Shown here piece after piece: positions 1 through 18,404 of a stretch of DNA of 64,000 nt (within the stretch, counting starts at the first letter, position 1; each line of letters opens with the position of its first letter). The position numbers and the translations under genes are program-made. Where the stretch lies: assembly GCF_016745395.1 (NCBI RefSeq), contig NZ_JAERVJ010000006.1:186001-250000 (forward strand), in the 5' to 3' direction. Source of the stretch: Methylocystis sp. Sn-Cys (GTDB taxonomy: Bacteria > Pseudomonadota > Alphaproteobacteria > Rhizobiales > Beijerinckiaceae). A model generated the notes under the pieces. The model saw only the letters and a program-made list of their open reading frames with translations. It searched no databases and was not told where the DNA came from.

Positions 1-811
1 CGCGAACATCTTTGCCTCTTTCCCCCTCGATTGCATAAGAGTTTGGGAGGATTCCCAGCGTGTCGGCGCGTAACCCTCGCCGAAGCGCCTCGAGGCTGAT
101 CAGCTCATCGACGAGAATATTGCCGAGATTGACGTCTGATCCGAACTGCCGAATAAGAAATGCCTGCTGTGCACGTTGCGGCGCCTCATAGATAAGGCGG
201 TCCGCCCGGCGGCTTCGCGCGAGCGCGTGGAGCACATTATGCCGGACCTTGCCGCAATCATCGTAGAGGCCGACTGTTCCGCTCTCTCGTCCTTCCACGA
301 CGATCCAGTCGGAACCGGCCATCAAGTCAGTTTCAATCTGGGAGATCCAGTCGACCGCCGATAGGATCTTACTTGGATCCTTGCTTCCAATCTCCGACAT
401 CACTTCGAACCCGAAAGACCGGGCGCGGGCGATAAGCATCTGCTTATCGCAGTACGGCATATCTGTCGCGCCGTCCGAGATTTCCACGCAATCGAAACCG
501 ACCTCTTTTGCGAACGCGAAGAAGCTTTCAGTTCGCCCCTGAAGCCAAGCTGCTTCCAACAGTGTGCCACCGGTGCAAGTCTTGACTTGAGCAGCGCGCA
601 GAACGGCGACTTTCGCTCGGGCGGTCGGATCGACGTAGGATGTGCCGAAGCCAAACTTCCAGACGTCGATGATCCGAGCCGCCGAAGAAAGGATGCTCTC
701 CGTCGCCAGCAGCGTACAGCCTTTGTCGAGAACGTGCGTGATCCCTTTACAACGCGGTTTCGCCGAACGTGGGGGAAGATCAAGGAAGGTTGGAAGCTCA
801 CTACCAGGCAT
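1..811 (-). CDS. Phosphosulfolactate synthase-like protein (ComA family), 3' end outside window
   Basis: The minus-strand frame is open from ATG 811 to the window edge (270 codons visible), so the C-terminus is missing. The translation shows a TIM-barrel pattern: KGITHVLDKG near the start, WKFGFGTSYVD around residue 50, an internal KTCTGGTLLEAA and FDCVEISDGA, and an EGRESG stretch around residue 175. These match the ComA family (PF02679), which adds sulfite to phosphoenolpyruvate to give phosphosulfolactate. The visible length is already at or slightly above the usual family size of about 250 residues. Bacterial homologues may use other acceptors, so the substrate is inferred. An OsmC gene lies 96 bp upstream on the same strand. 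The frame is absent from ordinary ORF calls because it has no stop in the window. Confidence 0.75.
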   Translation of the reverse strand, partial: MPGSELPTFLDLPPRSAKPRCKGITHVLDKGCTLLATESILSSAARIIDVWKFGFGTSYVDPTARAKVAVLRAAQVKTCTGGTLLEAAWLQGRTESFFAFAKEVGFDCVEISDGATDMPYCDKQMLIARARSFGFEVMSEIGSKDPSKILSAVDWISQIETDLMAGSDWIVVEGRESGTVGLYDDCGKVRHNVLHALARSRRADRLIYEAPQRAQQAFLIRQFGSDVNLGNILVDELISLEALRRGLRADTLGILPNSYAIEGERGKDVR

Positions 812-844
812 GACGCCGATCTCCCTGTGGCGACGCGTAGTATT

Positions 845-860
845 ATAGTATATACGCTAT
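845..860. promoter_or_regulatory. Imperfect palindrome upstream of the ComA-like gene
   Basis: ATAG-(8)-CTAT with a central GTATATAC, 34 bp upstream of the ATG at 811, in an AT-rich patch within GC-rich surroundings. The core resembles palindromes at 1510-1522 and 15076-15113. It could be an operator or simply an AT-rich promoter. Confidence 0.3.
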
Positions 861-907
861 GTCGCATCCGATAGCACGTCAAGGACGTGCGTGATCTCCC
901 GCGCGAT

Positions 908-1357
908 TCAGGGCGCCCCCGCAATGTTGGGCTCGCCTGCCGCCTCGACAGAAATTTCAACATCGGAGCGAAGAGTGTTGGTTACGTAGCACAGGCTCTC
1001 CGCACGACTGATTAGGGCATCGATCATCGAGGGGTCACATCCCATGCGAGCCGATATATGAATCGCGCGAAAGCGAGGGCCGTCGTAAGTCCCCGTTGCC
1101 GTCACCGCCAAGTGCTGCAACTCGACCGATAGCCTTTTGGCGCTAAAAGCGATTGCTAGCGTAAAGCAGGACGCCACAGCCGAAAGCAGAAGCTCCGTGG
1201 GTTGAGGCCCACTGTCATCTCCTCCGACGCTTTTCGGCTCATCCGCGACGAGAACGAAATTTCCTGCGCGTATGTCGCAGCGCAGCCCTCCGCGCCACGA
1301 ACTCTCCACCGATCGTTTGAAACGCCCTGATGCCATACTAAAGACCCCATATTGCAT
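908..1357 (-). CDS. OsmC/Ohr family peroxiredoxin-like protein
   Basis: A 149-residue protein of normal OsmC length. The two family cysteines are both present: one in the central helix motif SAVASCFTLA, the other in the late motif ESLCYVTNTL. These form the thiol pair that reduces organic hydroperoxides in OsmC/Ohr proteins. ATG 1357 has an AGGA ribosome site five bases upstream. It is followed by the ComA-like gene on the same strand and runs divergently from the nitrilase operon with about 320 bp between them. A role in handling thiol or peroxide stress, or a sulfur-linked substrate given the ComA-like neighbour, is inferred. Confidence 0.85.
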   Translation of the reverse strand: MQYGVFSMASGRFKRSVESSWRGGLRCDIRAGNFVLVADEPKSVGGDDSGPQPTELLLSAVASCFTLAIAFSAKRLSVELQHLAVTATGTYDGPRFRAIHISARMGCDPSMIDALISRAESLCYVTNTLRSDVEISVEAAGEPNIAGAP

Positions 1358-1509
1358 GAATTCCTGAAGCGCATTGTCTCAGACAAACCCGACCCACAAC
1401 GACAGATGCGTAGCAAGGGCCCCGAGGAGTGCTCTAAGGACGCATTCTCAAGCGTGGAGAAGCCCACTCTTTAGCAGATGCTGCCTTATCGCGGGCCGTT
1501 TTGCAAGAT

Positions 1510-1522
1510 TTGTATCATACAA
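1510..1522. promoter_or_regulatory. Perfect palindrome TTGTAT-C-ATACAA in the nitrilase/OsmC divergent promoter
   Basis: Six-base arms around one central base, in an AT-rich stretch between the OsmC start (1357) and the nitrilase start (1680). A TTGACT hexamer follows at 1532. The position suits an operator for one or both divergent transcripts; which protein binds is unknown. Confidence 0.4.
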
Positions 1523-1679
1523 TTTTTTATCTTGACTGCCAATTGAATGCATGATTGCATAGCCACTGTAACCACATTGACTGGCATGATTAGAGTCAAT
1601 CGAGGCCCGGCAACGAGTTGTAGCGCCGAAAATAAACCCGCGGGGAAGCGACGCCTCTCGGCTAGGGAAGGAAAAGCGA

Positions 1680-2693
1680 ATGGCTGAAAAACGAATTGTC
1701 AAAGTCGCCGCCGTGCAGATCGCTCCAGATCTGGACACCTCTGAAGGCACTCTAGATCGCGTGCTCGCGGCAATCGCGGAAGCTGCCCAAAAGGGCGTAC
1801 AGTTCGCAGTGTTTCCAGAGACATTCGTTCCCTGGTACCCGTATTTCTCTTTCGTCCGCCCACCCGTTCTTAGCGGCGCGGACCACATGCGCCTCTATGA
1901 GGAGGCTGTGGTTGTTCCAGGGCCGGTGACCGAGGCGGTAGCGCAGGCCGCGCGGCGGCACAAAATGGTGATCGTTCTCGGCGTCAACGAGCGCGATCAC
2001 GGTTCGCTTTACAATGCTCAGATCATCTTCGACGCGGACGGGCGGATTCTGCTGAAGCGCCGTAAGCTGACGCCGACCTTCCACGAACGCATGATCTGGG
2101 GTCAGGGCGACGGCGCCGGGTTGAAGGTTGTCGACTCCGCAGTCGGCCGGATCGGCGCGCTCGCCTGCTGGGAGCACTACAATCCGCTGGCCCGCTATGC
2201 GCTGATGGCGCAGCACGAAGAGATTCATGCCGCGCAATTCCCGGGTTCTCTCGTCGGCCAGCTCTTCGCCGACCAGATCGAGGTGACAATACGCCATCAT
2301 GCGCTGGAGAGCGGCTGCTTCGTGGTCAACGCCACGGGGTGGCTGACGGAAGACCAGATCGCCTCCATATCGCCGGACGAAAATCTGCGCCGCGGTCTGC
2401 GCGGCGGCTGCATGACAGCCATTGTCTCGCCCGAGGGTAATCACGTCGTGCCGCCCCTAACCTCCGGCGAGGGTCTGCTCATCGCCGAGCTCGACATGGG
2501 GCTGATCGTCAAACGCAAACGCATGATGGATTCGGTTGGCCACTACGCGCGGCCGGAGCTGCTGTCGCTGCTCATCGACGACCGCGTCGCGGCGCCGGTG
2601 CGCAGCATCAACGCAGCCCGCTTTTCATCCTCCGGCGAGTCGGCCGAGGACGCAGCCGAAATCTCGAGCGGGACGAACGATGATGCCGACTGA
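1680..2693 (+). CDS. nitC: Nit1C-type nitrilase (Sll0784 family)
   Basis: A 337-residue member of the carbon-nitrogen hydrolase superfamily. The catalytic triad is visible: Glu47 in FPETF, Lys129 in KRRKLTPT and Cys163 in ACWEH. The PWYPY segment after the Glu motif and the pattern HPxxLxxF-like tail are typical of the branch found in Nit1C clusters. The family hydrolyses nitriles to acids and ammonia, and Nit1C nitrilases have been tied to cyanide assimilation in pseudomonads. It heads an operon in which every following junction to 5320 overlaps. The next gene starts 14 bp before its stop. An AAGGAAAAGCG ribosome site precedes ATG 1680. Confidence 0.92.
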
Positions 2694-3783
2694 GCATCTT
2701 ATCAATGAGCTGCAATCCTTCGGGATCCGGCTCGCCGCCCCCGGAAGCGCGGGGGTGACGAGGCGCGGCGGCGCCGGACCATCGGACCATGTGCCGGTGA
2801 CAATCGACGGGATGACGGTGATGGCGCCGGTGCATAATGCGCCGGCCTTCGAAAGCCCTTACCTGGCGGAAAAACCCAACGCCCAGGGGCGCAGCCGTCT
2901 GAGCCGCGACGGCGTTACGATCGGCGACATCTCGTTTACCGCGCGTCCCCGGTTCTACGATCGCGTCACAGCCGACGGCGTCCCCTACTCCCACATCGCG
3001 ACCTTGCATGGTCGCGATGTACTCGCCACGACAGTGCTGCAAACCTGCATCCGATACCAAAGCCGCGCAAAGACTTGCCAATTTTGCTCGATTGGCCACT
3101 CGCTCGCGGCCGGCCGCACCGTCGAGCGCAAGACGCCGTCGCAACTTGCGGAGGTCGCAAAAGCTGCGGTCGAATTCGACGGCGTTCGCCACATGGTGAT
3201 GACGACGGGCACGCCTCCCGGTCCCGACCGCGGCGCGGCAATTCTCGCCGAGAGCGCGCGCGCCGTAAAAGCCGCGGTCGACCTGCCGATCGAGGCGCAG
3301 TGCGAACCGCCGGATGACGACGCATGGTTTGTGCGCATGAAAGACGCCGGCGTCGACTCGCTCGGCATGCATCTCGAAGCGGTTTCGCCGGCGGTTCGTG
3401 CGCGCGTCATGCCAGGCAAGGCGCAAGTTCCAATCGAGCGCTACTTCTCAGCGTTCGAGGCCGCCGCGCCCATCTTCGGTCGCGGCCAGCTCTCGACCTT
3501 TATCCTCGCGGGATTGGGAGACAGCGCGGCGGAAATACTGGATATCTGCGAGCGTCTGACGTCGATCGGCGTTTATCCATTCGTAGTGCCTTTCGTGCCG
3601 ATCTCGGGGACGCCACTCGAAAGTCACCCGGCGCCGACGCCTGATTTCATGCACGCCGTCCTCGAACCGCTGGCCGCCATGCTCGCCAAGACGGGTCTTC
3701 AGTCTAACGAAATCAAAGCCGGGTGCGGCAAATGCGGCGCGTGCTCGGCCCTCTCCACTTATGAGCGGAAAACCGGCAAATGA
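2680..3783 (+). CDS. nitD: MSMEG_0568-type radical SAM protein of the Nit1C cluster
   Basis: A 367-residue radical SAM enzyme. The cysteines that should hold the 4Fe-4S cluster are Cys123, Cys133 and Cys136, giving C-x9-C-x2-C rather than the usual C-x3-C-x2-C. This spacing goes with the Nit1C radical SAM family. Near the C-terminus a second cysteine group (Cys349, 352, 355 in GCGKCGACS) may bind an auxiliary cluster. I chose ATG 2680 because it overlaps the nitrilase stop and begins where family homology begins; an upstream in-frame extension to 2536 lies inside the nitrilase and reads as low-complexity arginine. The reaction is not known. The gene overlaps the acetyltransferase gene by 4 bp (ATGA). 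Confidence 0.88.
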
Positions 3784-4334
3784 CGGCTCCGCTCGACACC
3801 CCCCGCATCGCCTCGAGCCTTCAAATCAAATGGGCGACCGAGGAATGGGAAAAATCAGCCGCGATGGCGCTCCGGCGCCGCGTCTTCTGCGACGAACAAC
3901 AAGTCTTCGAGCAGGACGACCGAGATGAGATCGATGTGGCGGCCATCCCGCTGGTCGCCGTTTCGCTCTTTCAGGACATTGCCGACGGAGTGGTCGGCGC
4001 CGTGCGCATCCATGAGGACGAAGCCCGGGATGGAACCTGGTGGGGATCACGGCTCGCCGTCGAGAAGCGCTATCGCCGGTTCGGCGGCGTTGGCGTTGGC
4101 GCGGGGCTAATCCGCCTTGCGGTGTCCTCTGCGCATGCGCTTGGCTGCCGGCGTTTTCTCGCCAACGTGCAGAGCCAGAATGCGCCGCTGTTTCAGCGAC
4201 TGCATTGGCGATCGCTCGGTGAGTTCGAATGCCACGGCCGACTCCATCACCAAATGGAAGCGGATCTCAGCTATTACCCGCCATGTGAGACGCCGAACAT
4301 AGGCTTCTTCACCCGAGCGCGAGGCGCGGCATGA
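3780..4334 (+). CDS. nitE: GNAT N-acetyltransferase, MSMEG_0567/Sll0786 family
   Basis: A 184-residue GNAT-fold protein. The N-terminal half has the WEKSAAMALRRRVFCDEQQVF pattern (residues about 20-40) seen in acetyltransferases of the FlaR/Sll0786 type. The acetyl-CoA binding loop is the region RRFGGVGVGAGLIRLA (about 98-113). It overlaps nitD and nitF by 4 bp each, so translation is probably coupled. In Nit1C clusters this gene always travels with the nitrilase and radical SAM genes, which suggests that it acetylates an intermediate or product of that pathway; the acceptor is unknown. Confidence 0.88.
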   Translation: MTAPLDTPRIASSLQIKWATEEWEKSAAMALRRRVFCDEQQVFEQDDRDEIDVAAIPLVAVSLFQDIADGVVGAVRIHEDEARDGTWWGSRLAVEKRYRRFGGVGVGAGLIRLAVSSAHALGCRRFLANVQSQNAPLFQRLHWRSLGEFECHGRLHHQMEADLSYYPPCETPNIGFFTRARGAA

Positions 4335-5320
4335 CCATGTCAATCATCGCCAGCCAAGTCGCGCATACACTTAAGGAAAGCAAAAGTTTCGCGGCAAAAG
4401 CCGATATCGCCGACGTGATTGGCTTGCTTGGCGTTTCCGCCGAGGAAGCGATAGCGGTCGGCGACGACTGTGCGGCGATCCCGGACGGCGACAGTTATCT
4501 TTTAATTGCGATCGAAGGCTTCATGAATGAATTCGTCGCCCGAGATCCTTGGTTTGCGGGCTGGTGCGGCGTTATGGTCAATGTCTCCGACATCGCCGCA
4601 ATGGGGGGCGCGCCGATTGCGGTCGTCAATGCCATCTGGTCGGACGGCGTGGGCTCGGCCTCGCCGGTCCTTGAAGGCTTGAGAGAGGCGTCACGCGCCT
4701 TCGGGGTACCTGTCGTGGGCGGGCACAGCAATCTCCGTACGGACCGCGCCCAGCTTGCGGTCGCAATACTCGGGCGCGCCAAAAAGCTTCTCACCAGTTT
4801 CGACGCGGAGCCGGGCGACCAGCTTATTTCGGCGATCGATTTGCGCGGGCGCTTCCGAGAGCCGTTCTCGAATTGGGAAGCGGCAACGACCGCCCCACCT
4901 GAGCGCCTGCGAGGCGATCTCCAGCTCTTACCTGCAATCGCTGAAGCCGGGCTGTCGAAGGCCGCGAAGGATATCAGCCAAGGAGGCGTCGTCGGCACCG
5001 CGGCCATGCTGGCCGAATGCTCGAATGTCGCTGTCTCCATTGATCTCGCCGCAATTCCCAAGCCGGACTCGATCCCGTTAGAACGCTGGCTGACGAGCTT
5101 TCCCAGCTTCGGCTACCTGATCACGGCGCGTCCGAACAAGGTCGATGAAATCTTGGCTCTGTTCCGAGCGCGCGACATCGCCGCGGCAGCGATAGGCGAG
5201 ATCGCCTCGGGCGCCACCGTCGCAATTTGCAATCAAGGAAAGCGCGAAATCGTCTGGGACTTCTCCCAGAGAGCGCTGATCGGGTGCACCGCGCAGGGCG
5301 CGAATCGACGCTCGAATTGA
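4331..5320 (+). CDS. nitF: AIR synthase-related protein, Sll0787 family
   Basis: A 329-residue protein with the PurM/SelD/ThiL ATP-binding fold. The glycine/aspartate motif VGDDCAAIPDG (about residues 44-54), GVMVNVSDIAAMGG (about 81-94) and VVGGHSNLRT (about 133-142) are conserved family signatures for ATP and metal binding. It is a standard part of the Nit1C set. PurM-fold enzymes activate carbonyl or amide oxygen by phosphorylation, so a role in amidine or ring formation from a nitrile-derived intermediate is possible but inferred. It starts inside the stop of nitE and is followed after 31 bp by the LnmK-like gene. Confidence 0.88.
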   Translation: MTMSIIASQVAHTLKESKSFAAKADIADVIGLLGVSAEEAIAVGDDCAAIPDGDSYLLIAIEGFMNEFVARDPWFAGWCGVMVNVSDIAAMGGAPIAVVNAIWSDGVGSASPVLEGLREASRAFGVPVVGGHSNLRTDRAQLAVAILGRAKKLLTSFDAEPGDQLISAIDLRGRFREPFSNWEAATTAPPERLRGDLQLLPAIAEAGLSKAAKDISQGGVVGTAAMLAECSNVAVSIDLAAIPKPDSIPLERWLTSFPSFGYLITARPNKVDEILALFRARDIAAAAIGEIASGATVAICNQGKREIVWDFSQRALIGCTAQGANRRSN

Positions 5321-5351: not shown

Positions 5352-6335
5352 ATGACACACACCCCTTTTCTCTCAGGCTCATCATCCCGAGACCATCTCG
5401 GTTGTCCCATGAGCGCATTTCACCCGGCGCTCAGCGCCACCGACACGCGGCGTGGGATCGAGATCGTCGCCGGACAACAATGCCGCTGGGGGCGTGCTGA
5501 AACGGATACGTATTTGCTGGGCATGCCCCAGCTTGGTCTGAACGGCCTCTCGGAAACCTGGCTCCTAAAAGAACTCGGCCATCGCCACTGGATGATGCTC
5601 GCGCGCCTCGCCGGGCAGGATGCGCCGCGTTTCACCGACGAGCGCGGCGCGCCCGTCTACGCAGCATTTTGTGCTCTGTCTATTTACGACGCTAGATTAG
5701 AAGCGGCGCGCGAGAACGATCATCTGGTTATCAGTTCAAAGCTGCGACGACTGTCCCGGACTCAGATGCTCAGCCGTCACGAACTGAATCTGCCAGATGG
5801 CGACATTGGCGTGGTCGAAATGGTGTCCACCTTCGTGCGTCGCGGCGCTGAGGGCGGCAATCATTCGGTTTCACGCTTCGCCGCGCCGGGGTTGCCGCCG
5901 GTATCTCCCGGGCTGGAAAACCATTGGCTCGCCGCCCGCGCAGCAGCACTACGCGCCGGACGGGCGGATGCCCATATGGGCTTCTCGGTTCGTCAGGCCC
6001 AACCGCGCAAGGTGGCTTCCTTCGACCCCTGCCCTAGCCAGGATTTCAATGGCGCTGGCCTGCTCTACTTCAGCAGCTTCGTATCTTTCGCCGATCGCAT
6101 GGAATGGTCGTTCGCGCGAGAAAAATCTCTCGGTGCGACAACGGTCAGGCGAGACGTGTTCTTCTCCGGCAACATAGATCCCGGCGAGACATTGGCGGTT
6201 AGCTTGGTTGAATTGCGGGACTATACGGAAACATTTGCTCATCACTGCCAGATCTTGCGCGAGCAAGACGGCGCTCCCTTGGCCCGCATTTTCACAGTCA
6301 GACGAGCGCCGACGAAACCAGAGCAATCCCGATGA
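5352..6335 (+). CDS. LnmK/Pnap_2097-like biosynthesis-cluster protein
   Basis: A 327-residue protein resembling the LnmK/Pnap_2097 group of double-hotdog proteins found in biosynthetic clusters. Visible signatures are TYLLGMPQLGLNGLSETWLLKELGHRHW (residues about 54-80) in the first half and DFNGAGLLYFSSFVSFADRMEW (about 229-250) in the second half, the latter being the typical hotdog helix. LnmK itself is a bifunctional acyltransferase/decarboxylase, but most relatives have no assigned reaction. The gene sits at the end of the Nit1C operon, and its presence argues that an acyl thioester is handled. ATG 5352 was used; ATG 5409 is an alternative, and neither has a strong ribosome site. Confidence 0.7.
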   Translation: MTHTPFLSGSSSRDHLGCPMSAFHPALSATDTRRGIEIVAGQQCRWGRAETDTYLLGMPQLGLNGLSETWLLKELGHRHWMMLARLAGQDAPRFTDERGAPVYAAFCALSIYDARLEAARENDHLVISSKLRRLSRTQMLSRHELNLPDGDIGVVEMVSTFVRRGAEGGNHSVSRFAAPGLPPVSPGLENHWLAARAAALRAGRADAHMGFSVRQAQPRKVASFDPCPSQDFNGAGLLYFSSFVSFADRMEWSFAREKSLGATTVRRDVFFSGNIDPGETLAVSLVELRDYTETFAHHCQILREQDGAPLARIFTVRRAPTKPEQSR

Positions 6336-6391: not shown

Positions 6392-6799
6392 ATGCCGAAG
6401 AGAGTACATGTTCCGCCTTTGTCGCCGTTACAGGCCGGTCTGCGGGGTCGATGCCCGCGTTGTGGACGAGGATCGCTCTTTAACGGCTTTCTTGAGCTTC
6501 ATAAGCAGTGCGACGCCTGCGGCCTCGATTATTCCTTTGCGGACCCAGCGGATGGGCCGGCGTTTTTCGTCATGTGTTTCGCCTGCGTTCCTTCGGTCGC
6601 GCTCGCCCTGTGGCTGGAGGCCGTCTATTCTCTTCCCTATTGGGCGCACCTTTTCACGACGCTTCCGTTCTTGTTAGTGACCTGTGTGCCGCCTCTGCGA
6701 CCGTTAAAAGGGTGGTTTGTCGCCCGCCAATATTACTATGACGCCGAAGAGGGCCGCCTTGCGCTCGAAGATGTGCGCGCCAAACATCAGACGACGTAA
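6392..6799 (+). CDS. DUF983 family membrane protein
   Basis: A 135-residue protein with the DUF983 signature GLRGRCPRCGRGSLFNGFL near residue 15-34, where two CxxC-type pairs (CPRC and CDAC) look like a small zinc ribbon. Two hydrophobic segments follow (about 52-72 and 80-100), so the protein is likely an inner-membrane protein with a cytosolic metal-binding head. ATG 6392 has GAGGAG eight bases upstream. It lies 56 bp after the LnmK-like gene on the same strand. DUF983 proteins are common in alphaproteobacteria, often beside cytochrome oxidase or other genes, and membership of this operon may be coincidental. Confidence 0.85.
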   Translation: MPKRVHVPPLSPLQAGLRGRCPRCGRGSLFNGFLELHKQCDACGLDYSFADPADGPAFFVMCFACVPSVALALWLEAVYSLPYWAHLFTTLPFLLVTCVPPLRPLKGWFVARQYYYDAEEGRLALEDVRAKHQTT

Positions 6800-6922: not shown

Positions 6923-7579
6923 TCAGTCACGATTGCGACACGCTATCCAGATCAATTGAACCGGCATCTTGCTTTTATTTTCCCAATGGTGCGGGAGGTT
7001 GCCATCGAATTGCAGTGAGTCTCCCGCTTTCAGGATGTAGTCGCGACTGTTGACTCGGAAAGAGACCTCGCCTGACAAGACGTGAACGAGTTCCTCGCCC
7101 GCGTGTCTCAGGGCCTTCTCGCCGCTGGAGGCGCCAGGCGCCATTCGAGCGATCGCGGCGGCCGTCTGAAATTTCTGATAGGAGCCCGTTATGCCCGAGA
7201 GGCTCAATCCCTTATGTGACGTATAGACGCGCGGTCGCTGGTCCGCCGGCGTGTAATGGACGGGCTCCGGCAGAGTCTCGTCTTCCTCGACAAAATAAGA
7301 GACTGAAACGCCCAGGGCCGCAGCGAGCTTGAGCAGCGTGGTGATCGTCGGCACCATGCCGCTACGTTCGATCTTGTGAATTGCGGCAGGCGACACGTCG
7401 CTGATCTCTGCGAGCTGCTGCAAAGACAAGCCTTTTGTTCGACGCAGATTCGCCACCTTTTGGCCAACCAAACTCACAATGTCGTCTACTTCGCGAGAGC
7501 GCGAGCCTGCAACCTCGCGGGGCGCGCCATCAGCCGCCCGCTTCCGCGGTTCAGCCTTCTTCTTCGTCTGCGTAACCAA
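6923..7579 (-). CDS. XRE-family regulator with C-terminal cupin domain
   Basis: A 218-residue protein. A helix-turn-helix of the XRE type spans about residues 35-95 (VGQKVANLRRTKGLSLQQLAEIS... IERSGMVPTITTLLKLAAALGVSVSYF). A cupin barrel fills the C-terminal half (HAGEELVHVLSGEVSFRV, and GDSLQFDGNLPHHWEN), giving a small-molecule sensor. The start appears to be TTG 7579, preceded by GGAG with good spacing. This class often represses a catabolic operon and responds to its substrate. It lies in the same direction as, and 33 bp downstream of, the unknown gene at 7613-8278, between the nit operon and fdrA, so it is the natural candidate regulator of the island. Confidence 0.88.
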   Translation of the reverse strand: MVTQTKKKAEPRKRAADGAPREVAGSRSREVDDIVSLVGQKVANLRRTKGLSLQQLAEISDVSPAAIHKIERSGMVPTITTLLKLAAALGVSVSYFVEEDETLPEPVHYTPADQRPRVYTSHKGLSLSGITGSYQKFQTAAAIARMAPGASSGEKALRHAGEELVHVLSGEVSFRVNSRDYILKAGDSLQFDGNLPHHWENKSKMPVQLIWIACRNRD

Positions 7580-8278: not shown

Positions 8279-8344
8279 CCTTCCTCTCCCCCTGCCTCGG
8301 ATCGCCATCTTAGTTGGGCCATCCCCTTCTTTGCCTGACAACAA

Positions 8345-11338: not shown

Positions 11339-12766
11339 TCACAGAATTCTCTGGTCAAGATCCATCAACGCTTGGGTAAAACAGTCAATTGGAGCCGAAG
11401 CGACGCCGGCCCCAATTTGGCCGGCGCCGCTAAAAGCGTGAATGACGCCTGTGTTGACAGCCGGAGTGATCGCAAGCTCGACGACGCGTCGAACATCCAC
11501 GCCGAGTGGGGCGCCTGCGTTCTCCAATATTGGTAGAAGGAAGGAACGACTCTCTCCCGCACAGATGCGCTGCATGTTGCGCGTCGCCGCGATCGCGTCG
11601 GACATTCTGCCACCGAGGAAACCCGCGACCGCCGGAGAGTTTGCCGAAACTGCCCCTCCAAGGCCAATCAGCTCGAGTACGGCGCTGTCGCCGATGTCCG
11701 CGGCGCTCGCTTCCGGACCATGGCCGGGAAAATACAGCGCCTTCTGGATTGGCGGCGCGGCCGCAAGGAACCAACGCTCTAGGCCCGCCAGCCGAATGCC
11801 GTAGGTCACGCCATTGCGCGACATCGTCGTCACGATGCTCGAATTCTCGACTTTGGCCGCGGAGTCCACCAACGATTTGGCCGCAGCCATGGCGATGTTG
11901 AGAAACATCGTGTGATTGCGGCTGAGAAAATCAGCGGCGTCTCCAGCGCCAGGCCGGGAGATTCGCATCAAAAACGGGAGGAGATCCCTCAGTAGGAGAC
12001 ACGTTGTCGCCTGTACCCGTATATGAACGTCGTCGCCCATGACGACGCCCTGCGCCGCCAGCGACCAAACGTCTATAGCGCCCCTCCTGGCGATCGCTTC
12101 CCCAATTACAGGGCCAATCACATCGCGAATAAAAAAAAGCCGATCGATCGCCAAGCTGCTGTCGACGCCGAACCATTGAGTTTCGCCCGCTCCCTGGTTG
12201 ATGCTCGAAAAAGCGATCGTTCTTCCCATTTCATTTTCTACCACGTAAACCGGGGCGGACGGGCCGATTACAGTGGCCATGGGAACGACGGTCGAATGTT
12301 CGTTCGCCGGTCGTAGCTCGATTTCGCGAGAGGCAATGAGACGGGCCGCCGCCTCGATGTTTCCGGCCCACCCCTCCGCGACGATGGCTGCCTTGATCGA
12401 ACGTCGCAGAGGATCGCACATATCCGCCCATGCTATGGCGGGCCCGCAATGGAGCAATGTGCGCTCGCTCATGCCGGGCACGACCGCACCGGCTCTCTCG
12501 ACACCTTTGAGAAGGGGCGCGCCATTGTTCAAGCGCGCGACAACCTCTGCATTCGCAGCGTCGATAATGGATGATTTAGGCCCCATCAGCCGGGCTAACG
12601 CCGAAATGACGTCGCTCTCTCCTCCGCAGGGAATTTGCCAATCGATGCCTATGACAGGCGCCCCCTGGCTTCTGATCGATTCCTCGAATAGAGGCAGGCC
12701 GATGTTGATAACGTCGATCTTACGAGGAAGAGGGATTATTGAGGAAGGAGCCGGCATGAGCGTCAT
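11339..12766 (-). CDS. DUF1116 family protein (AllG/YlbE-like)
   Basis: A 475-residue DUF1116 protein of normal length. Recognisable stretches are GIDWQIPCGGE near residue 40, the GERTLLHCGPAIAW-like segment MSERTLLHCGPAIAWADMCDPLRRS (about 98-122), and TMSRNGVTYGIRLAGLERWFLAA (about 315-338). DUF1116 proteins are the AllG subunit of oxamate carbamoyltransferase with FdrA (AllF). Here it is encoded convergent to the fdrA-glycosyltransferase pair, in the same direction as the MSMEG_0572 and flavoprotein genes. ATG 12766 is preceded by AGGCGGGA. Pairing with FdrA in a carbamoyl or acyl transfer is inferred from the known partnership. Confidence 0.87.
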   Translation of the reverse strand: MTLMPAPSSIIPLPRKIDVINIGLPLFEESIRSQGAPVIGIDWQIPCGGESDVISALARLMGPKSSIIDAANAEVVARLNNGAPLLKGVERAGAVVPGMSERTLLHCGPAIAWADMCDPLRRSIKAAIVAEGWAGNIEAAARLIASREIELRPANEHSTVVPMATVIGPSAPVYVVENEMGRTIAFSSINQGAGETQWFGVDSSLAIDRLFFIRDVIGPVIGEAIARRGAIDVWSLAAQGVVMGDDVHIRVQATTCLLLRDLLPFLMRISRPGAGDAADFLSRNHTMFLNIAMAAAKSLVDSAAKVENSSIVTTMSRNGVTYGIRLAGLERWFLAAAPPIQKALYFPGHGPEASAADIGDSAVLELIGLGGAVSANSPAVAGFLGGRMSDAIAATRNMQRICAGESRSFLLPILENAGAPLGVDVRRVVELAITPAVNTGVIHAFSGAGQIGAGVASAPIDCFTQALMDLDQRIL

Positions 12767-12880: not shown

Positions 12881-13369
12881 TTAAATCGTCCAGGTCGTCA
12901 TCACGAGGGCGCGGTCTCGCCAAGCCTGGATGGTGAGATCGAGGATGTCGAGTGGGTTCACTGGAATAACGCCGGGGATCAGATCGTCTTCCCGCATGCC
13001 GTACAATGCGCCCATGGCAAATCGGCAAGCGTAGATTTTGGCCCCCTCGTCCATCAATGTCTTGAGTTGACGATTATACGCTAGATTGCCAGGGAAGCCT
13101 TCGGCGCCGACGGACGGGTAACCGCGCGCGGCTGAAGCCATGAGGACACCCGGCCCATAGAGCACGAAGGACAGCTCGAACCCTTTCCGGGCTAGGCGCG
13201 TAGCCGTCAGCATGTTCACGAGTCCGACCGATCCCTCGAAGGGAACGGTGTGCATAAAGATATAAGCCTTGTCGCCGGGATTAGCCTTGTGATCCGGGAA
13301 CACCTTCTCCTCGACGTTGAATAAAACATCGCCGGGCTGCGGAGCGGGGATTGTAACGGTCTTAGGCAT
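12881..13369 (-). CDS. nitB: MSMEG_0572/Sll0783 family nitrogen starvation response protein
   Basis: A 162-residue protein with a DsrE-like fold. The characteristic stretches are NVEEKVFPDHKANPGDKAYIFMHTVPFEGSVG and FVLYGPGVLMASAARGYPSVGAEGFPGN. It belongs to the family induced on nitrogen starvation and located in Nit1C clusters, where it usually precedes the nitrilase gene. Here it has moved to a separate minus-strand transcript. ATG 13369 has an AAGGAGACAAA ribosome site; the frame extends upstream to 13414 without support. One cysteine (in KIYACRFAMG) corresponds to the position often conserved in DsrE proteins. Its biochemical activity is not known. Confidence 0.9.
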   Translation of the reverse strand: MPKTVTIPAPQPGDVLFNVEEKVFPDHKANPGDKAYIFMHTVPFEGSVGLVNMLTATRLARKGFELSFVLYGPGVLMASAARGYPSVGAEGFPGNLAYNRQLKTLMDEGAKIYACRFAMGALYGMREDDLIPGVIPVNPLDILDLTIQAWRDRALVMTTWTI

Positions 13370-13436: not shown

Positions 13437-13715
13437 CTAGTCGAACTTGGGAAATGCCCGATGGGCGGGACGCGGTCGTTCGGCCTGTGCCGGCCAAGCG
13501 CGGTGATGGCTTCCAGGAAGCACGTAGAAAGCAAACCGCCGCAGGCCATCGGGAAGCACGCGATAAATCGGCACAAACACAAAGCGCCAAAAATAGTCCT
13601 TGAGACTGCGCGGCCTGAATGAAAACGCCATCCCATTTTGCGTTGCGATGCGCTCTTGCGCCGCGGCGAGCAGGTAGTATTCCGAATTGGATCGGAGCCA
13701 TTGCGGGAAAGACAT
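13437..13715 (-). CDS. Small hypothetical protein between flavoprotein and MSMEG_0572 genes
   Basis: A 92-residue protein of unknown function. ATG 13715 has a good ribosome site (GGGAGGCGATAATC) and the gene begins 2 bp after the flavoprotein stop, so it is very probably translated. The central part has an aromatic/arginine pattern (RPRSLKDYFWRFVFVPIYRVLPDGLRRFAFYVL) that could be an amphipathic membrane-associated helix pair. The C-terminus is rich in Pro and Arg. I do not recognise a family. Its place inside the nitB operon suggests a link to the same pathway. Confidence 0.6.
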   Translation of the reverse strand: MSFPQWLRSNSEYYLLAAAQERIATQNGMAFSFRPRSLKDYFWRFVFVPIYRVLPDGLRRFAFYVLPGSHHRAWPAQAERPRPAHRAFPKFD

Positions 13716-13717
13716 GA

Positions 13718-15049
13718 TTATCGCCTCCCGAGTTTTTGCTGCACGGCTTGCGCCGCCATGGCGATTGGCTCGTTCAACGCCCCTATGGCCGGGGAATAGA
13801 CGTTTTCCATCGTCGCCAGATCATCGATCGAAATGCCCGAGCGGACGGCCATGCCCAGGAAATCCGCTCGCTCCTTGACGCCTTCGCCCCCAACCATCTG
13901 CGCTCCGATGAGGCAGCGCGTAGCAGGATCTGCAAGCAGCTTCACCGTGATTGGACGCACCCCGGGATAGTACCGCGCCCTTGTGATACCGTTTGACGCG
14001 CCGCTCACGAATTTCACGCCAATCGCGGCGGCTGTCGTTTCACCAAAGGAAACGCCCCCAATCATCCAGTCGCCTGCGAGCATCGCCCAGGGGACATAGA
14101 CGGGCTGGTATTCGCGTCGCCCTCCCGCAGCATTGACGCCCGCGGCCTTGCCCTGCGCATAGGCATGGCTTCCCGAGAGGCCTTGAAGCGGAACATTGGT
14201 GACGCCATGCGGAATTTCCGTGCAGTCGCCGGCGGCAAACACGTCGCTCGCAGAGGTTTTCATGAAGGAATCGACGATAATGCCACCGGTGGCGCCCAGA
14301 GCGACGCCCGCCGCTCTTGCCAAAGCTGTATTCGGCGCCTTGCGCGTTCCGATGATGGCAAGCTGCGCCTCGACCCGCCCGGCTGTCGTCTCGGCATAAG
14401 CAAGGGCGCCCTGGCCGCCGAAGGCCGTAACGCGCTCTCCCCACAGCGTCACAACCCCAGCGTCGGCCCAGCTCTTTCGAACCGGCTCGATGATGTCAGG
14501 ATCGACGACGCCGGCCATCGGCCAAGGGGCGGGATCGACAACGGTGACCTTGATGCCGCGATGAACGAGCGCCGACACCATTTCGACGGCGATCGGTCCG
14601 CACTCGACCACGACCGCTGATTTCACCGTGTCGATGAATTTGTCCCACTCCATCGCGCGACGAATATTCTTGACGCGGTAGATGCCCTCCAGATGATCGC
14701 CGGGAATTTGGGGATCCGAATAATTCCAGCCGGTCGCGAGCACCAGCCGGTCATATCTAATTTCGCCTTCTTCGCGGACCTTGATGGCATGACGCTTGAC
14801 GTCGATGCTTTCGACCGTAGTCGTATAGTGAATATCTATGCCCTGATCGGCGTATTGTTGCTTCGTTGCAAGGAACAGTTTGTCGAAAGATTCAATTTCG
14901 CGACCGTGGACGAATGGAATGCCGCAGGGGCTGTAAGCAACGTCCTCGAATTCCGTGTAATTCACGATGTCAGCCGACGGGTCCACTCCTTTTGCAGCCC
15001 CTGCGGCGCCGAGCCCGGAAGCGCCGCCTCCAATTACGACGATCTTCAT
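13718..15049 (-). CDS. FAD-dependent oxidoreductase, CoA-disulfide-reductase-like
   Basis: A 443-residue two-dinucleotide-binding-domain flavoprotein. The FAD site is at the N-terminus (IGGGASGLGAAGAAKG), the single redox cysteine is Cys42 in YSPCGIPF, and the second FAD motif is VFAAGDCTE near residue 275. The NAD(P) domain around residues 145-175 has lost the usual GxGxxG (SAVVVECGPIAVEM). The single active-site Cys places it with CoA-disulfide reductases, NADH oxidases and persulfide reductases. ATG 15049 was chosen because the family begins there and GAGGAACGAGG precedes it; the open frame extends to 15169. It replaces the MSMEG_0569-type flavin oxidoreductase usually found in Nit1C clusters. 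Confidence 0.85.
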   Translation of the reverse strand: MKIVVIGGGASGLGAAGAAKGVDPSADIVNYTEFEDVAYSPCGIPFVHGREIESFDKLFLATKQQYADQGIDIHYTTTVESIDVKRHAIKVREEGEIRYDRLVLATGWNYSDPQIPGDHLEGIYRVKNIRRAMEWDKFIDTVKSAVVVECGPIAVEMVSALVHRGIKVTVVDPAPWPMAGVVDPDIIEPVRKSWADAGVVTLWGERVTAFGGQGALAYAETTAGRVEAQLAIIGTRKAPNTALARAAGVALGATGGIIVDSFMKTSASDVFAAGDCTEIPHGVTNVPLQGLSGSHAYAQGKAAGVNAAGGRREYQPVYVPWAMLAGDWMIGGVSFGETTAAAIGVKFVSGASNGITRARYYPGVRPITVKLLADPATRCLIGAQMVGGEGVKERADFLGMAVRSGISIDDLATMENVYSPAIGALNEPIAMAAQAVQQKLGRR

Positions 15050-15075
15050 CCCTCGTTCCTCCCGATTTGCCGCCA

Positions 15076-15116: not shown

Positions 15117-15193
15117 AGCATTTCGTCAAGAGGCATGGGCAGCATTGTATGCATTTTGTGTGGCAACAAAGGAAGCCAACAACCAGAACAATT

Positions 15194-15241
15194 GTTATCG
15201 ACCGATAACGTAACTTATTATCAATATGTTATGTAACATAT
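15194..15241. promoter_or_regulatory. Two perfect inverted repeats in the flavoprotein/cio intergenic gap
   Basis: GTTATCG-AC-CGATAAC (15194-15209) and ATATGTTA-TG-TAACATAT (15224-15241), both without mismatch, with only an AT-rich spacer between. They have no T-run and lie between divergent genes, so they are more likely protein-binding sites than terminators. Confidence 0.4.
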
Positions 15242-15316
15242 GAGCCGCCATAGATTCGGGCTTTATGGCTCTCAGCGATTTTTTGCCGTCATTTTTTATG
15301 GCGATGAACAACCGAT

Positions 15317-15345
15317 TTGACATATTTGTATGCATATTGTATCAG
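15317..15345 (+). promoter_or_regulatory. Probable sigma-70 promoter ahead of the cio region
   Basis: A perfect TTGACA (15317-15322) is followed after 17 bp by TATCAG (15340-15345). The spacer holds TATGCATA, a palindrome that a repressor could use. It reads toward the small ORF at 15401 and cioA at 15826. Confidence 0.4.
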
Positions 15346-15400
15346 AAGCAATCTCACTACAAACTCACTTGTGTGGCAACGAGATGCAGAGGGGACGTCG

Positions 15401-15625: not shown

Positions 15626-15825
15626 TCGCTGGCCGCAAGTCCTCCTAATCCAGCGCACGCATGGCAGCGCAACACGCCATAGAGGCCTAACGCGGACTGC
15701 AACGCGCGGTCGTTCAGGTTTTGAAAGCCCACCCAAATGCACAAGGCCGTCAAAACCGCAGCCGTTCAGGCTGCGCCAATTTGCCACTGTCGAATTGGTC
15801 GCTTGTCCCGTCCAGGAGAAAAGAC

Positions 15826-17241
15826 ATGTTCGAATTAACGGCGCTCGATCTCGCCCGCGTCCAATTTGGATTCACAGTGTCCTTCCATATCATCTTCCCG
15901 ACGATCACGATCGGGCTCGCCAGCTATCTGGCTGTGTTGGAAGGCTTGTGGCTCTGGAAGAAAGATTCCGTTTATCGGGACCTCTATCTCTTTTGGTCGC
16001 AGATATTCGCGGTGAATTTCGCGATGGGCGTCGTTTCAGGACTGGTTATGGCTTATCAGTTCGGGACGAACTGGAGTTACTTCTCCACTTTCGCCGGCGG
16101 CATTACTGGCCCACTACTCACCTATGAGGTGCTCACCGCCTTCTTCCTCGAGGCAGGGTTCCTCGGCGTGATGCTATTTGGCTGGAACAAAGTGGGACCG
16201 AGCTTGCATTTCTTTGCGACCGTGATGGTCGCAATAGGCACTCTCATATCTGCGACTTGGATTCTTGCCTCCAATAGCTGGATGCAAACGCCACAGGGCT
16301 TTGAGATAATCGACGGTCGCGTCGTACCGGTTGATTGGCTGAAGGTGATCTTCAACCCCTCCTTCCCCTACCGGCTCGCACACACTTCCATCGCGGCCTT
16401 TCTCGCCACCGCGCTGTTCGTCGGGGCTGCAGGAGCCTGGCATCTGCTGCGCGGGCGCGCGACGGCGGCAGTGCGCGCCATGCTCTCGATGGCGATGTGG
16501 ATGATCTTGATCGTAGCGCCGATTCAAGTCGCCGTCGGCGATGCGCACGGTCTTAACACGCTTGAGCATCAACCAGCCAAGATTGCCGCCATGGAAGGTC
16601 ACTGGCGCAACGAACCAGGCCAGGGCGTACCCCTCATCCTGTTCGGCTGGCCCGACATGGCGGCTGAGACCACACGCTACGTCATCGAAATTCCACGGCT
16701 CGCCAGCCTGATCCTGACCCATGATCTCGATGGCCAATTTCCAGGCTTGATGGATTTCCCGGCGCAGGACCGGCCCAACGCCACGATTGTTTTCTGGTCC
16801 TTCCGAGTGATGGTTGGTCTCGGCCTGCTGATGCTGTTGCTCGGGTTCCGGGGCCTGTGGCTGCGCTGGCGCGAGCGACTCTATGACGACCGCACATTCC
16901 TGCGGTTTACGACAATGATGGGACCAAGCGGCACGATCGCGATTCTTGCCGGCTGGTTCACCACAGAGGTCGGGCGGCAGCCTTGGGTGATTTACGGCGC
17001 GATGCGGACCGAGCACGCAGTCTCGAACCACTCGGCTTTGGCGCTATCCGCCACGTTGCTCATGTTCGTCGTCATGTATGCCTCCGTCTTCGGGACCGGC
17101 ATCGGTTACATGCTGAAGCTGGTTGCGAAAGGGCCGCAGGAGGGGCTGGGCGTCGAGAATATGCCTAACCACGGACAGCCGCCGCATGCGGCCCGGCCGC
17201 TCTCCGCCGCCCCCGACAATATCCGCCCAGCAATCCGCTAA
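15826..17241 (+). CDS. cioA: Cytochrome bd-type quinol oxidase subunit I, cyanide-insensitive type
   Basis: A 471-residue CydA-family membrane protein with about nine hydrophobic segments. The haem-ligand histidine lies in the first helix region (VSFHIIFPTITIG), and the quinol/haem motif EVGRQPWVIYG is near residue 390. The Q-loop is short, as in the cyanide-insensitive (CIO) branch, not extended as in E. coli CydA. The enzyme oxidises quinol and reduces oxygen while resisting cyanide. ATG 15826 has an AGGAGAAAAGAC ribosome site; the open frame reaches back to 15721 without support. cioB follows after 12 bp. Proximity to a Nit1C cluster parallels cyanide-using pseudomonads. Confidence 0.93.
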   Translation: MFELTALDLARVQFGFTVSFHIIFPTITIGLASYLAVLEGLWLWKKDSVYRDLYLFWSQIFAVNFAMGVVSGLVMAYQFGTNWSYFSTFAGGITGPLLTYEVLTAFFLEAGFLGVMLFGWNKVGPSLHFFATVMVAIGTLISATWILASNSWMQTPQGFEIIDGRVVPVDWLKVIFNPSFPYRLAHTSIAAFLATALFVGAAGAWHLLRGRATAAVRAMLSMAMWMILIVAPIQVAVGDAHGLNTLEHQPAKIAAMEGHWRNEPGQGVPLILFGWPDMAAETTRYVIEIPRLASLILTHDLDGQFPGLMDFPAQDRPNATIVFWSFRVMVGLGLLMLLLGFRGLWLRWRERLYDDRTFLRFTTMMGPSGTIAILAGWFTTEVGRQPWVIYGAMRTEHAVSNHSALALSATLLMFVVMYASVFGTGIGYMLKLVAKGPQEGLGVENMPNHGQPPHAARPLSAAPDNIRPAIR

Positions 17242-17253
17242 GGAGGCCCAACC

Positions 17254-18261
17254 ATGGGTATAGACCTTCCCCTCCTCTGGACCTTTGTCCTCACTTTCGG
17301 GCTCATGATGTATGTTGTCATGGATGGGTTCGACCTTGGCATCGGCATACTGTTCCCCTTTGTGCGCGACCGTTCCGAACGAGACACCATGGTCAATACG
17401 GTGGCGCCGGTCTGGGACGGCAACGAGACGTGGTTGGTGCTCGGCGGAGCTGCTTTACTTGCAGCCTTCCCGTTGACCTATTCGGTTCTCCTGAGCGCGC
17501 TCTATCTGCCGCTGGTCGCGATGCTTGCAGGTTTAATCTGGCGCGGGGCGGCCTTCGAGTTCCGATTCAAGGCCGACGAGGCGCACAAGCCTTTCTGGGA
17601 CAAGGCGTTCGCTTGGGGCTCTTATATCGCGACCTTTTCACAAGGCATCGCGCTGGGAGCCTATATCAACGGCTTCGAAGTCAGGGATGGCGCCTATGCC
17701 GGCGGTCTGCTGGACTGGCTCACCCCTTTCGGTCTCTTTACCGGCCTTGGCCTTTTGATCGCCTATGCTTTGCTCGGCGCAACATGGCTTGTGATGAAGA
17801 CCGAAGGCCCTCTCCAACGCCGCATGCGCGCGCTCGCGCGGCCGGTCGCTATAGCTCTGCTCGGGGCCATCACGATCGTTAGCCTCTGGACGCCATACGC
17901 TCACGCGGAAGTGGCGGCCCGATGGTTCTCGCTGCCCAACTTCATATTCTTCGCCCCTGTGCCGATGCTCGTGCTGGCTACCACCTGTACGCTCCTGAAG
18001 ACACTCGGCGACGACCGCGACGTTGCGCCCTTCCTGTTGACGCTGCTGCTGCTGTTTCTCGGCTATACAGGCCTGATCATCAGCCTCTGGCCAAACATCA
18101 TTCCACCGGCCGTCTCCATTTGGGATGCAGCGGCGCCGGCGCAGAGCATGGGCTTCGCTCTGGCTGGAGCGCTATTCATCATCCCCTGCACCCTCGCCTA
18201 CACTGCATGGTCTTACTATGTCTTCCGCGGCAAAGTGCGGACTGGCGAGGGCTATCACTAA
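17254..18261 (+). CDS. cioB: Cytochrome bd-type quinol oxidase subunit II
   Basis: A 335-residue CydB-family membrane protein, with the typical start LPLLWTFVLTFGLMMYVVMDGFDLGIGIL and the conserved WDGNETWLVLGGAALLAAFP segment near residue 55-74. About eight transmembrane segments can be seen. It pairs with CioA to form the bd-type oxidase, probably in the inner membrane. An AAGGAGG ribosome site precedes ATG 17254. The stop codon overlaps the start of the small DUF2474 gene (TAATG). Confidence 0.93.
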   Translation: MGIDLPLLWTFVLTFGLMMYVVMDGFDLGIGILFPFVRDRSERDTMVNTVAPVWDGNETWLVLGGAALLAAFPLTYSVLLSALYLPLVAMLAGLIWRGAAFEFRFKADEAHKPFWDKAFAWGSYIATFSQGIALGAYINGFEVRDGAYAGGLLDWLTPFGLFTGLGLLIAYALLGATWLVMKTEGPLQRRMRALARPVAIALLGAITIVSLWTPYAHAEVAARWFSLPNFIFFAPVPMLVLATTCTLLKTLGDDRDVAPFLLTLLLLFLGYTGLIISLWPNIIPPAVSIWDAAAPAQSMGFALAGALFIIPCTLAYTAWSYYVFRGKVRTGEGYH

Positions 18262-18404
18262 TGCGAGCCCTTCCGCTCTTTCGGATCGTATGGGTCCGCC
18301 GTCTCGGCTGGCTCGTTGCCCTTTGGGTCGGGAGCGTAGTCGCACTCGCCGCCGTTGCGATGCTATTTCGGACCGTTATGAGTCTTGCCGGGTTGACGAG
18401 ATGA
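18261..18404 (+). CDS. DUF2474-type small subunit of the bd oxidase
   Basis: A 47-residue protein beginning at the ATG that overlaps the cioB stop by one base. It has a single transmembrane helix (WLVALWVGSVVALAAVAMLFRTVM) preceded by the pattern WVRRLGW. This is the DUF2474 pattern, found directly after cydAB/cioAB genes, and it corresponds to the CydX-like accessory subunits that stabilise the oxidase haems. It is too short for many gene finders. Function as a third subunit is inferred from family and position. Confidence 0.8.
   Translation: MRALPLFRIVWVRRLGWLVALWVGSVVALAAVAMLFRTVMSLAGLTR

Follow-up and report, generated by a model that had tools for sequence, protein, structure and literature searches.

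Nit1C is a widespread gene cluster in which few genes have had a reaction assigned to them. As described in excerpts of the published reports, the cluster consists of nitBCDEFGH (PMC1199592, PMC11049912), and Podar et al. stress that all seven genes are retained (PMC1199592). In Pseudomonas pseudoalcaligenes CECT5344, the cioA3B3-nit4 cluster joins the use of a nitrilase, Nit4, with cyanide-tolerant respiration and contains many amino-acid genes, while Nit1C lies elsewhere with NitA; these features are likewise taken from excerpts (PMC8567248, PMC5333837, PMC11049912). The same excerpts place mocR divergent to the cio cluster, which is induced by cyanide, and quote unpublished data according to which a MocR mutant expresses the cluster constitutively (PMC8567248); they also state that nit and cio proteins both rise with cyanide residue (PMC5333837). 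Here we analysed 64 kb of DNA from Methylocystis sp. Sn-Cys (bases 186001-250000 of the 266,763-bp contig C17, in a genome of 4.02 Mb; hereafter the window), the first 20.1 kb of which hold nit genes, the cytochrome bd genes cioAB and a mocR gene in one block (Table 1). We lean towards reading this block as a plasmid-borne cyanide/nitrile response island built from Nit1C, in which nit and cioAB stand under one MocR.

Upon comparison with Nit1C, we found the window to share the NitB to NitF families and the glycosyltransferase, and the relatives described below to share the MocR and Pnap_2097 neighbours. In contrast to Nit1C, the window has no NitG or NitH, distributes its genes over both strands and has FdrA, AllG, flavoprotein, HTH-cupin and cioAB genes added. 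It carries MocR and not the NitA of Pseudomonas Nit1C, as the latter is described in the excerpted source (PMC11049912). The gene set resembles the CECT5344 cio cluster in combining cioAB, an adjacent MocR and a nitrilase; the nitrilase of the window is NitC instead of Nit4, and its regulator is of the Nit1C side.

The relatives were drawn from a genome collection of 397 genomes of the order and 385 of the class. A nitrilase over the TIGR04048 cut-off was present in 40 of the 397, and the 39 other than the window's own genome were used. Up to 20 kb around nitC was fetched from each, and 29 query proteins were mapped; three stretches were ended by contig ends at 10.7-12.1 kb (L043, L062 and L067), L061 was 19.6 kb, and others lay nearer to one end. 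The common layout was MocR divergent to nitB-C-D-E-F-glycosyltransferase-G-H-LnmK. In particular, MocR was present and divergent to nitB in 38 of the 39 stretches, NitH in 38, NitG in 37, the glycosyltransferase in 31 and LnmK in 23; the single relative without NitH and the single one without MocR were at contig ends, the contig of the latter starting at nitB. A scan of genome contigs with the LnmK-like protein as query yielded three loci. Loci of Ancylobacter, Aureimonas and Burkholderia anthina had the same Nit1C layout. CioA, CioB, FdrA, AllG, the flavoprotein and the HTH-cupin protein were encoded in none of the 39 fetched stretches. In the window, by comparison, nitB is separated from nitC-F and lies on the opposite strand, and the compact co-directional Nit1C order was not seen; nitB and mocR are still divergent, but about 5 kb with a divergent flavoprotein/cioAB promoter lie between them. 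The preliminary description of this DNA had read it as Nit1C-derived genes with an integrated CIO-type oxidase, and this agrees with the position of cioAB inside the conserved nitB/mocR junction, as well as with the short Q-loop and the operator sites presented below. In this sample, a single nit-cio block is particular to Methylocystis iwaonis.

The assignment to this species rests on the first 20.1 kb of the window, which two M. iwaonis plasmids, SS37A-Re and SD4, match over 100% of its length with 98.2% identity; the record of the latter gives the rice rhizosphere as its source. Because the same 20.1 kb sits on both plasmids at this identity, the island is not a chance assembly. Judging by sequence, contig C17 is probably a plasmid and the host is almost surely M. 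iwaonis, a methanotroph, in keeping with the methylotroph that had been assumed. The preliminary description had called for a search for the same combination in other methanotrophs; among 39 Methylocystis genomes, Nit1C was present in one besides the window's own, G402, which is of the same species. The island is a variant of known nit/cio kinds and, in the genomes sampled, is limited to one species.

The cytochrome bd type with a short Q-loop is cyanide-tolerant. The plasmid CioA matched 1287 bp of the Pfam model, compared with 1479 and 1485 bp for the two other copies of the genome, both on contig C8; the other full-length cioA matches in the genus spanned 1476-1485 bp, with the exception of the G402 plasmid copy and that of G398. 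An alignment with one of the C8 paralogues (L005 only) revealed that the plasmid CioA is without the Q-loop insert. A short-type cioA was found in three of the 39 Methylocystis genomes, namely the two Nit1C carriers and G398, whose copy was only 43% identical; partial matches in G415 and G425 were not typeable. The plasmid CioA was 82.6% identical to a Roseomonas plasmid copy. By the sequence homology of subunits I and II and the short Q-loop, the plasmid oxidase is of the CIO type.

Direct repeats of ATTGAMTGYAT, 11 or 12 bp apart, were common to the MocR-nitB intergenic regions of 42 other loci, which served for training with the window excluded. The resulting d=11 operator matrix of 28 bp was scanned over the 64-kb window, and its four best matches lay within the flavoprotein-cioA interval (two), in the nitC promoter and upstream of mocR (Table 1). 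With the same matrix, the best score averaged 12.9 over 30 simulated windows of 64 kb, with a maximum of 18.8, and it reached 13.8 in 149 kb of DNA from elsewhere in this genome. Among column-permuted matrices, 1 in 500 covered all three promoters, and 1 in 500 put both top sites at flavoprotein/cioA. When random halves of the regions were used for training, 38 of 40 runs placed the best site at the flavoprotein/cioA promoter, and 24 of 40 had all three promoters among the top four; on average 93% of the held-out regions had a site above 15. As a negative control, we took the CIO-like cioA loci that 24 of the 39 relatives carry beyond the Nit1C stretch, 29 in all, and examined up to 500 bp upstream of each. 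Only one locus exceeded 15 (G364, 19.6; next best 13.8), so the operators are not a general trait of cioA promoters, and such a property in Nit1C genomes was rejected. Of the two sites on the cioA side, that at 15141 was unchanged in both other M. iwaonis plasmids, and that at 15322 was unchanged in SS37A-Re with two changes in SD4; the site upstream of mocR had one change or one deletion in the two plasmids. These predicted operators suggest that cioAB probably lies within the Nit1C MocR regulon.

Against its six best Nit1C-linked matches, the window MocR showed 51-55% identity. A tree of 48 MocRs contained a branch with values of 99/95 that parted six cio-linked proteins from 41 Nit1C-linked ones and that of the window. 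The window MocR formed a long branch near that split and was joined to 40 Nit1C rows at 90/76, in a tree for which the tool warns on long branches. It thus falls on the Nit1C side, and because of this position the cio block seems to have been captured under a Nit1C-side MocR.

We also compared CioA matches in a plasmid collection; the best 10 of 664 records were considered, two of which are Methylocystis, leaving 8 of 662 outside this genus. A MocR homologue upstream of cioA, with at most one gene between, was found in five of these eight (L111, L112, L115, L116 and L118, with L112 and L115 nearly identical), and none was present in the fetched stretch of the other three (L113, L117 and L119). 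Two of the eight loci (L118 and L113) had a site above 15 by the Nit1C-trained d=11 matrix, so the motif recognised by most cio-linked MocRs probably differs somewhat. The cioA-side sites of the window (TTGTATGCAT) resemble those of the MocR-cioAB units in Agrobacterium and Roseomonas. These MocR-(nitrilase)-cioAB plasmid units, from Agrobacterium sp. T29 and Roseomonas, have CioAB proteins 71-83% identical to those of the window, a MocR homologue upstream, an annotated DUF2474 gene (in all but L116) and sometimes DUF983, as in the window. In contrast, their MocR proteins are 40-49% identical to that of the window, and no Nit1C core genes are annotated beside them. The unit on the Agrobacterium sp. 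T29 plasmid (L111, 215-10576) contains MocR, nitrilase, cioA, cioB and DUF2474 genes in this order, together with genes for a phosphoserine transaminase and another aminotransferase, and its nitrilase matches the NIT4 structure 6i00 with 372 bits. This unit resembles the CECT5344 cio-nit4 cluster, which is said, in the excerpt of the source, to have no database homologue (PMC11049912). Rhizobium rhizogenes K84 has a palindromic ATTGACTGCATTCAAT site some 0.3 kb upstream of cioA (L113, 7649-7687), although no MocR homologue was found in the 17.4-kb stretch.

Several observations weigh against one MocR-controlled cyanide island. No match to NitG (TIGR04042, MSMEG_0570) or NitH (TIGR04046, MSMEG_0569 flavoprotein) was found at E<=0.001 in the whole genome, whereas the stretches of 37 and 38 of the 39 relatives, respectively, have them. 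A five-of-seven cluster is unusual because all seven genes were found to be kept by Podar et al., as excerpted (PMC1199592), and the cyanide assimilation of Pseudomonas is therefore not transferable unchanged. The preliminary description had proposed the use of cyanide as nitrogen as one of two options; nit and cio are truly joined, and the link is probably regulatory, but the incompleteness of Nit1C weakens the nitrogen part. The description had also named separate nit and cio blocks in most relatives, with no cyanide phenotype, as a point against its reading, and most relatives do keep them apart: cioAB was in none of the 39 stretches, and one relative of the same family (G196) has cioA 10.8 kb from nitC. 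In many cases the nit-cio distance is undefined, as cioAB lies on another contig. The G196 cioA is accompanied by a MocR of its own, by DUF983 and by a gene for 5-aminolevulinate synthase; this arrangement is unlike that of Methylocystis and mildly favours a functional nit-cio link. The three M. iwaonis copies of the island represent one lineage, and neither expression data nor a cyanide phenotype for M. iwaonis was found.

The operator evidence has contrary points as well. By a simpler two-half-site score, sites at nitC and mocR take the first three places in the window (22.7, 19.9 and 19.5, the best at 1531), and the cioA-side sites are recognised as single half-sites only, at ranks 1 and 5 among half-sites. 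The d=12 matrix has its top match at 41594 (19.9), followed by 1527 (17.4) and 15280 (17.0), against a background best of 17.4; it was set aside since its specificity was too low. Each of the two other plasmids differs at three bases of the nitC site, with the core half-site 1542-1552 intact, and no operator was predicted directly before fdrA. The cioA-side sites read TTGTATGCAT, compared with the commoner ATTGAATG/ATTGACTG; they resemble the sites of cio-type units and may be leftovers that came along with cioAB. Among the five MocR-cioAB units, only L118 exceeds 15 by the d=11 matrix.

Under the reading we prefer, MocR would bind the ATTGAMTGYAT direct repeats at three promoters, namely those of a putative nitC-D-E-F-lnmK operon, of the divergent flavoprotein-orf92-nitB-allG and cioAB transcription units, and of mocR itself. 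Cyanide, a derived nitrile or the accompanying nitrogen starvation would change the state of MocR. Cyanide is a likely trigger because a report on P. pseudoalcaligenes describes repression of its cyanide-induced cio cluster by a MocR. The nitrilase set would then hydrolyse a nitrile of the cyanohydrin or cyanoalanine type and free ammonium, from which the cell may gain nitrogen, and the predicted cyanide-tolerant quinol oxidase would sustain respiration during a block of the cytochrome c oxidases. NitG and NitH would have been lost, with the flavoprotein possibly substituting for the NitH flavoenzyme, and FdrA/AllG may process an acyl or carbamoyl intermediate further downstream.

The same genes might instead form a biosynthetic or nitrogen-starvation cluster. 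A nitrile-derived small molecule would then be produced under nitrogen limitation by NitC-F, the LnmK-like enzyme, the glycosyltransferase, FdrA/AllG and the flavoprotein; cyanide would be no more than a by-product, against which CioAB would protect the cell. This idea draws on the membership of LnmK-like enzymes in the methylmalonyl acyltransferase/decarboxylase family, on the Pnap_2097 gene of Burkholderia anthina that is followed by a methylmalonyl-CoA mutase gene, on the typical tailoring character of the radical SAM, GNAT and glycosyltransferase enzymes and on the prodigiosin cluster of the same plasmid; furthermore, the title of one report ties Sll0783, the NitB homologue of Synechocystis, to nitrogen starvation and polyhydroxybutyrate. 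We nevertheless regard it as unlikely. No carrier protein, polyketide synthetase or peptide synthetase was present among the island proteins scanned, and excerpts of the literature indicate that NitC of the best-studied Nit1C clusters is required for growth on cyanide, though those clusters carry NitA (PMC11049912, PMC8567248).

It is distinctly improbable, in our judgement, that nit and cio are unrelated plasmid cargo that became neighbours by chance, with the cioA-side sites as remnants of a cio-type MocR unit. Against this, cioAB sits between nitB and mocR instead of next to the cluster. The sole MocR seen in the island is of the Nit1C side, yet the cioA sites persist across three plasmids, one unchanged and one nearly so, and a matrix trained on Nit1C ranks these sites first. 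Chance neighbourhood would nonetheless suit the plasmid, which is a patchwork by its sequence content (prodigiosin, coenzyme M and VapBC genes), and the separation of nit and cio in nearly all relatives; the similarity of the cioA sites to those of the MocR-cioAB units of Agrobacterium and Roseomonas, and their single half-sites by the simpler score, point the same way.

The features are collected in Table 1. Families were called by profile score against curated NCBIfam cut-offs, together with Pfam, and the gene starts of CioA, the flavoprotein, NitD and NitB were taken from the M. iwaonis annotation.

Table 1. Genes and predicted MocR operators in the first 20.1 kb of the window (positions of the window; cut-offs are curated family thresholds).
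Feature	Position	Strand	Evidence
ComA/phosphosulfolactate synthase	1..811	-	Pfam ComA 264 bits; first gene of coenzyme M (xcb) operon leaving window leftwards
OsmC-like protein	908..1357	-	Pfam OsmC 65 bits
Predicted MocR operator, nitC promoter	1539..1566	+	d=11 matrix 17.4, rank 3; adjoining half-site from 1531
NitC, Nit6803-family nitrilase	1680..2693	+	TIGR04048 572 bits (cut-off 503)
NitD, MSMEG_0568 radical SAM	2683..3783	+	TIGR04043 579 bits (cut-off 304); start (~2683) per M. iwaonis annotation
NitE, MSMEG_0567 GNAT acetyltransferase	3780..4334	+	TIGR04045 226 bits (cut-off 68)
NitF, sll0787-family AIR-synthase-like	4331..5320	+	TIGR04049 460 bits (cut-off 321)
LnmK-like Pnap_2097 family acyl enzyme	5352..6335	+	TIGR04099 328 bits (cut-off 125), TIGR04098 287 bits
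DUF983 protein	6392..6799	+	Pfam PF06170
HTH-cupin (PuuR-like) regulator	6923..7579	-	NF007408 94 bits, under cut-off 211
ORF, doubtful gene	7613..8344	-	no family match; lengths annotated differently in both M. iwaonis plasmids
FdrA-like protein, CoA-ligase domain	8451..10055	+	NF004760 385 bits, under cut-off 433
MSMEG_0565-family glycosyltransferase	10052..11269	+	TIGR04047 368 bits (cut-off 260)
AllG/DUF1116 protein	11339..12766	-	Pfam AllG 219 bits
NitB, MSMEG_0572 (DsrE-like)	12881..13369	-	TIGR04044 214 bits (cut-off 110); start per M. iwaonis annotation
orf92, 92-aa ORF	13437..13715	-	no family over cut-off
CoA-disulfide-reductase-like flavoprotein (DSOR)	13718..15049	-	TIGR03385 234 bits, under cut-off 579; start (15049) per M. 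iwaonis annotation
Predicted MocR operator upstream of DSOR	15141..15168	+	d=11 matrix 21.6, rank 2 in 64 kb
Predicted MocR operator, flavoprotein-cioA interval	15322..15349	+	d=11 matrix 24.9, rank 1 in 64 kb
CioA, cytochrome bd subunit I, short Q-loop	15826..17241	+	Pfam PF01654 555 bits; start (15826) per M. iwaonis annotation
CioB, cytochrome bd subunit II	17254..18261	+	Pfam PF02322 327 bits; NCBIfam cydB 172 (cut-off 117)
DUF2474 protein	18261..18404	+	annotated at same position in M. iwaonis
Predicted MocR operator upstream of mocR	18517..18544	+	d=11 matrix 15.1, rank 4 in 64 kb
MocR regulator (GntR-aminotransferase)	18620..20032	+	GntR + Aminotran_1_2 domains

As evident from the table, all of the genes named in the preliminary description were present and nearly full length. 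Five of the seven Nit1C proteins, its nitrilase, radical SAM, GNAT, AIR synthase-like and MSMEG_0572 families, exceeded the curated cut-offs, and its LnmK-like enzyme, MSMEG_0565 glycosyltransferase, FdrA/DUF1116 pair, CoA-disulfide-reductase-like flavoprotein and cioAB were recovered by profile scores. Its limits needed correction at both ends: the island does not stop at 18404, as the Nit1C-associated MocR belongs to it too, and the ComA-like enzyme had to be removed, as explained below. The plus strand carries, in order, nitC, nitD, nitE, nitF and the LnmK-like and DUF983 genes, followed by fdrA and the glycosyltransferase gene and then by cioA, cioB, DUF2474 and mocR; the minus strand carries the HTH-cupin gene and then flavoprotein, orf92, nitB and allG, pointing away from cioA.

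Residues 7-302 of NitC align with the nitrilase structure 3wuy (Nit6803) with 495 bits, and no nitrilase other than NitC, for example of the Nit4 type, was present among the island proteins scanned. NitF scored 251 bits against methanogenesis marker 2 (TIGR03267; cut-off 365), and the next listed AIR-synthase relative outside the Nit1C families scored 75 bits. In Burkholderia anthina, a methylmalonyl-CoA mutase gene follows the Pnap_2097 gene at the end of Nit1C (L083, 18444-21415), which hints at a methylmalonyl substrate. DUF983 genes recur near Nit1C clusters and MocR-cioAB units (L053, L077, L082, L116, L118 and L149) and are present in 2 of the 39 Nit1C stretches. The FdrA-like protein and AllG are relatives of two of the three subunits of the oxamate carbamoyltransferase AllFGH, as named by Pfam. 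Unlike in AllFGH, their two genes lie on opposite strands, and AllH (PF11392) had no match in the window's own genome; for FdrA/AllG our claim therefore goes no further than chemistry on some acyl or carbamoyl intermediate. The flavoprotein has a cysteine at what is presumably the position of the CoA-disulfide-reductase active cysteine, and no other match to it was found at E<=1e-70 among the 385 genomes of the class sampled. Its assignment as a 2-ketopropyl-CoM reductase was unsupported, with 22% identity to the Py2 enzyme and 27% to Xaut_5065. A reading of orf92 as a diverged NitG was likewise unsupported: it scored 1.4 bits against a rough NitG profile that contained at least one misread row (L047), and the genome-wide NitG search was empty as well. 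A remnant of an insertion sequence (IS) in the flavoprotein-cioA interval was not shown, as a 281-bp search matched only the two M. iwaonis plasmids. The records of H57 (FdrA match) and H70 (CioA match) have no annotated features.

The ComA-like enzyme had been counted as part of the island; we rejected this, as its gene heads the neighbouring coenzyme M (CoM) operon. In that set, XcbA scored 278 bits (cut-off 150; for the SD4 protein, 92% identical in this genome), the XcbC-like protein 422 (cut-off 575) and the XcbD-like protein 509 (cut-off 600), and a PALP gene is also present. The ComA, XcbA, XcbD, PALP and XcbC proteins were 35-43% identical to their Py2 counterparts. The set adjoining the island is thus homologous to that of the Xanthobacter Py2 CoM pathway and of the methanotroph etnE clusters, as these are described in the excerpted source (PMC11507031). 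In contrast to them, no epoxyalkane:CoM transferase was seen beside it. Such a transferase, EtnE (76% identical to that of Py2), lies with its own CoM set on contig C19 and, in G402, on contig C1, off the island's contig. The second CoM set, beside the island, also includes ketopantoate-reductase-like, DUF938 and SpeE-like genes (L003, 12736-19880; L004, 2997-3812). CoM sets without EtnE in other Methylocystis were rejected: the ComA proteins of G413, G417 and G430 shared no more than 23-26% identity and lacked xcb neighbours in the fetched stretch, and for a ComA match in G412 the fetched stretch gave no match.

The prodigiosin cluster of the same plasmid was scanned in the SD4 record (L041, 29424-41512; L090, 3331-23945), where PigC scored 1460 bits (cut-off 1300), PigD 1355 (950), PigE 1373 (850) and the PigB-like protein 538 (below 850). 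Downstream of the Pig genes, SD4 has annotated methyltransferase, ACP, polyketide synthase and phosphopantetheinyl transferase genes, and contig C17 has ORFs of lengths that match the SD4 cluster (L003, 448-7510). A literature search on prodigiosin in Methylocystis gave a paper that is, judged by its title, a review of atmospheric microbes.

A wider and quite unlikely view is that the plasmid is a kit for life at plant roots that release ethylene together with HCN, an equimolar co-product of plant ethylene synthesis according to an excerpted report (PMC6399987). Methane monooxygenase would turn ethylene into toxic epoxyethane, which the CoM pathway would capture through the EtnE homologue and the CoM set on C19 and the second set beside the island; the MocR island would handle cyanide by nitrile hydrolysis and CIO respiration, and the CoM operon beside it would be part of one adaptation to rice roots. 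If this is true, a cyanide-responsive MocR would be, to our knowledge, the first regulator that joins Nit1C and cioAB. A cluster that lacks NitG and NitH, and that has its predicted operator in common with the CIO-type oxidase joined to it, bears on the purpose of Nit1C and on which of its genes are dispensable, and the operator motif may serve to predict the regulon elsewhere. On cyanide as a nitrogen source of methanotrophs, a literature search gave a paper that is, by its title, a Methylobacterium review. For methanotrophs, the island would represent a new nitrogen source together with a stress defence in rice soil.

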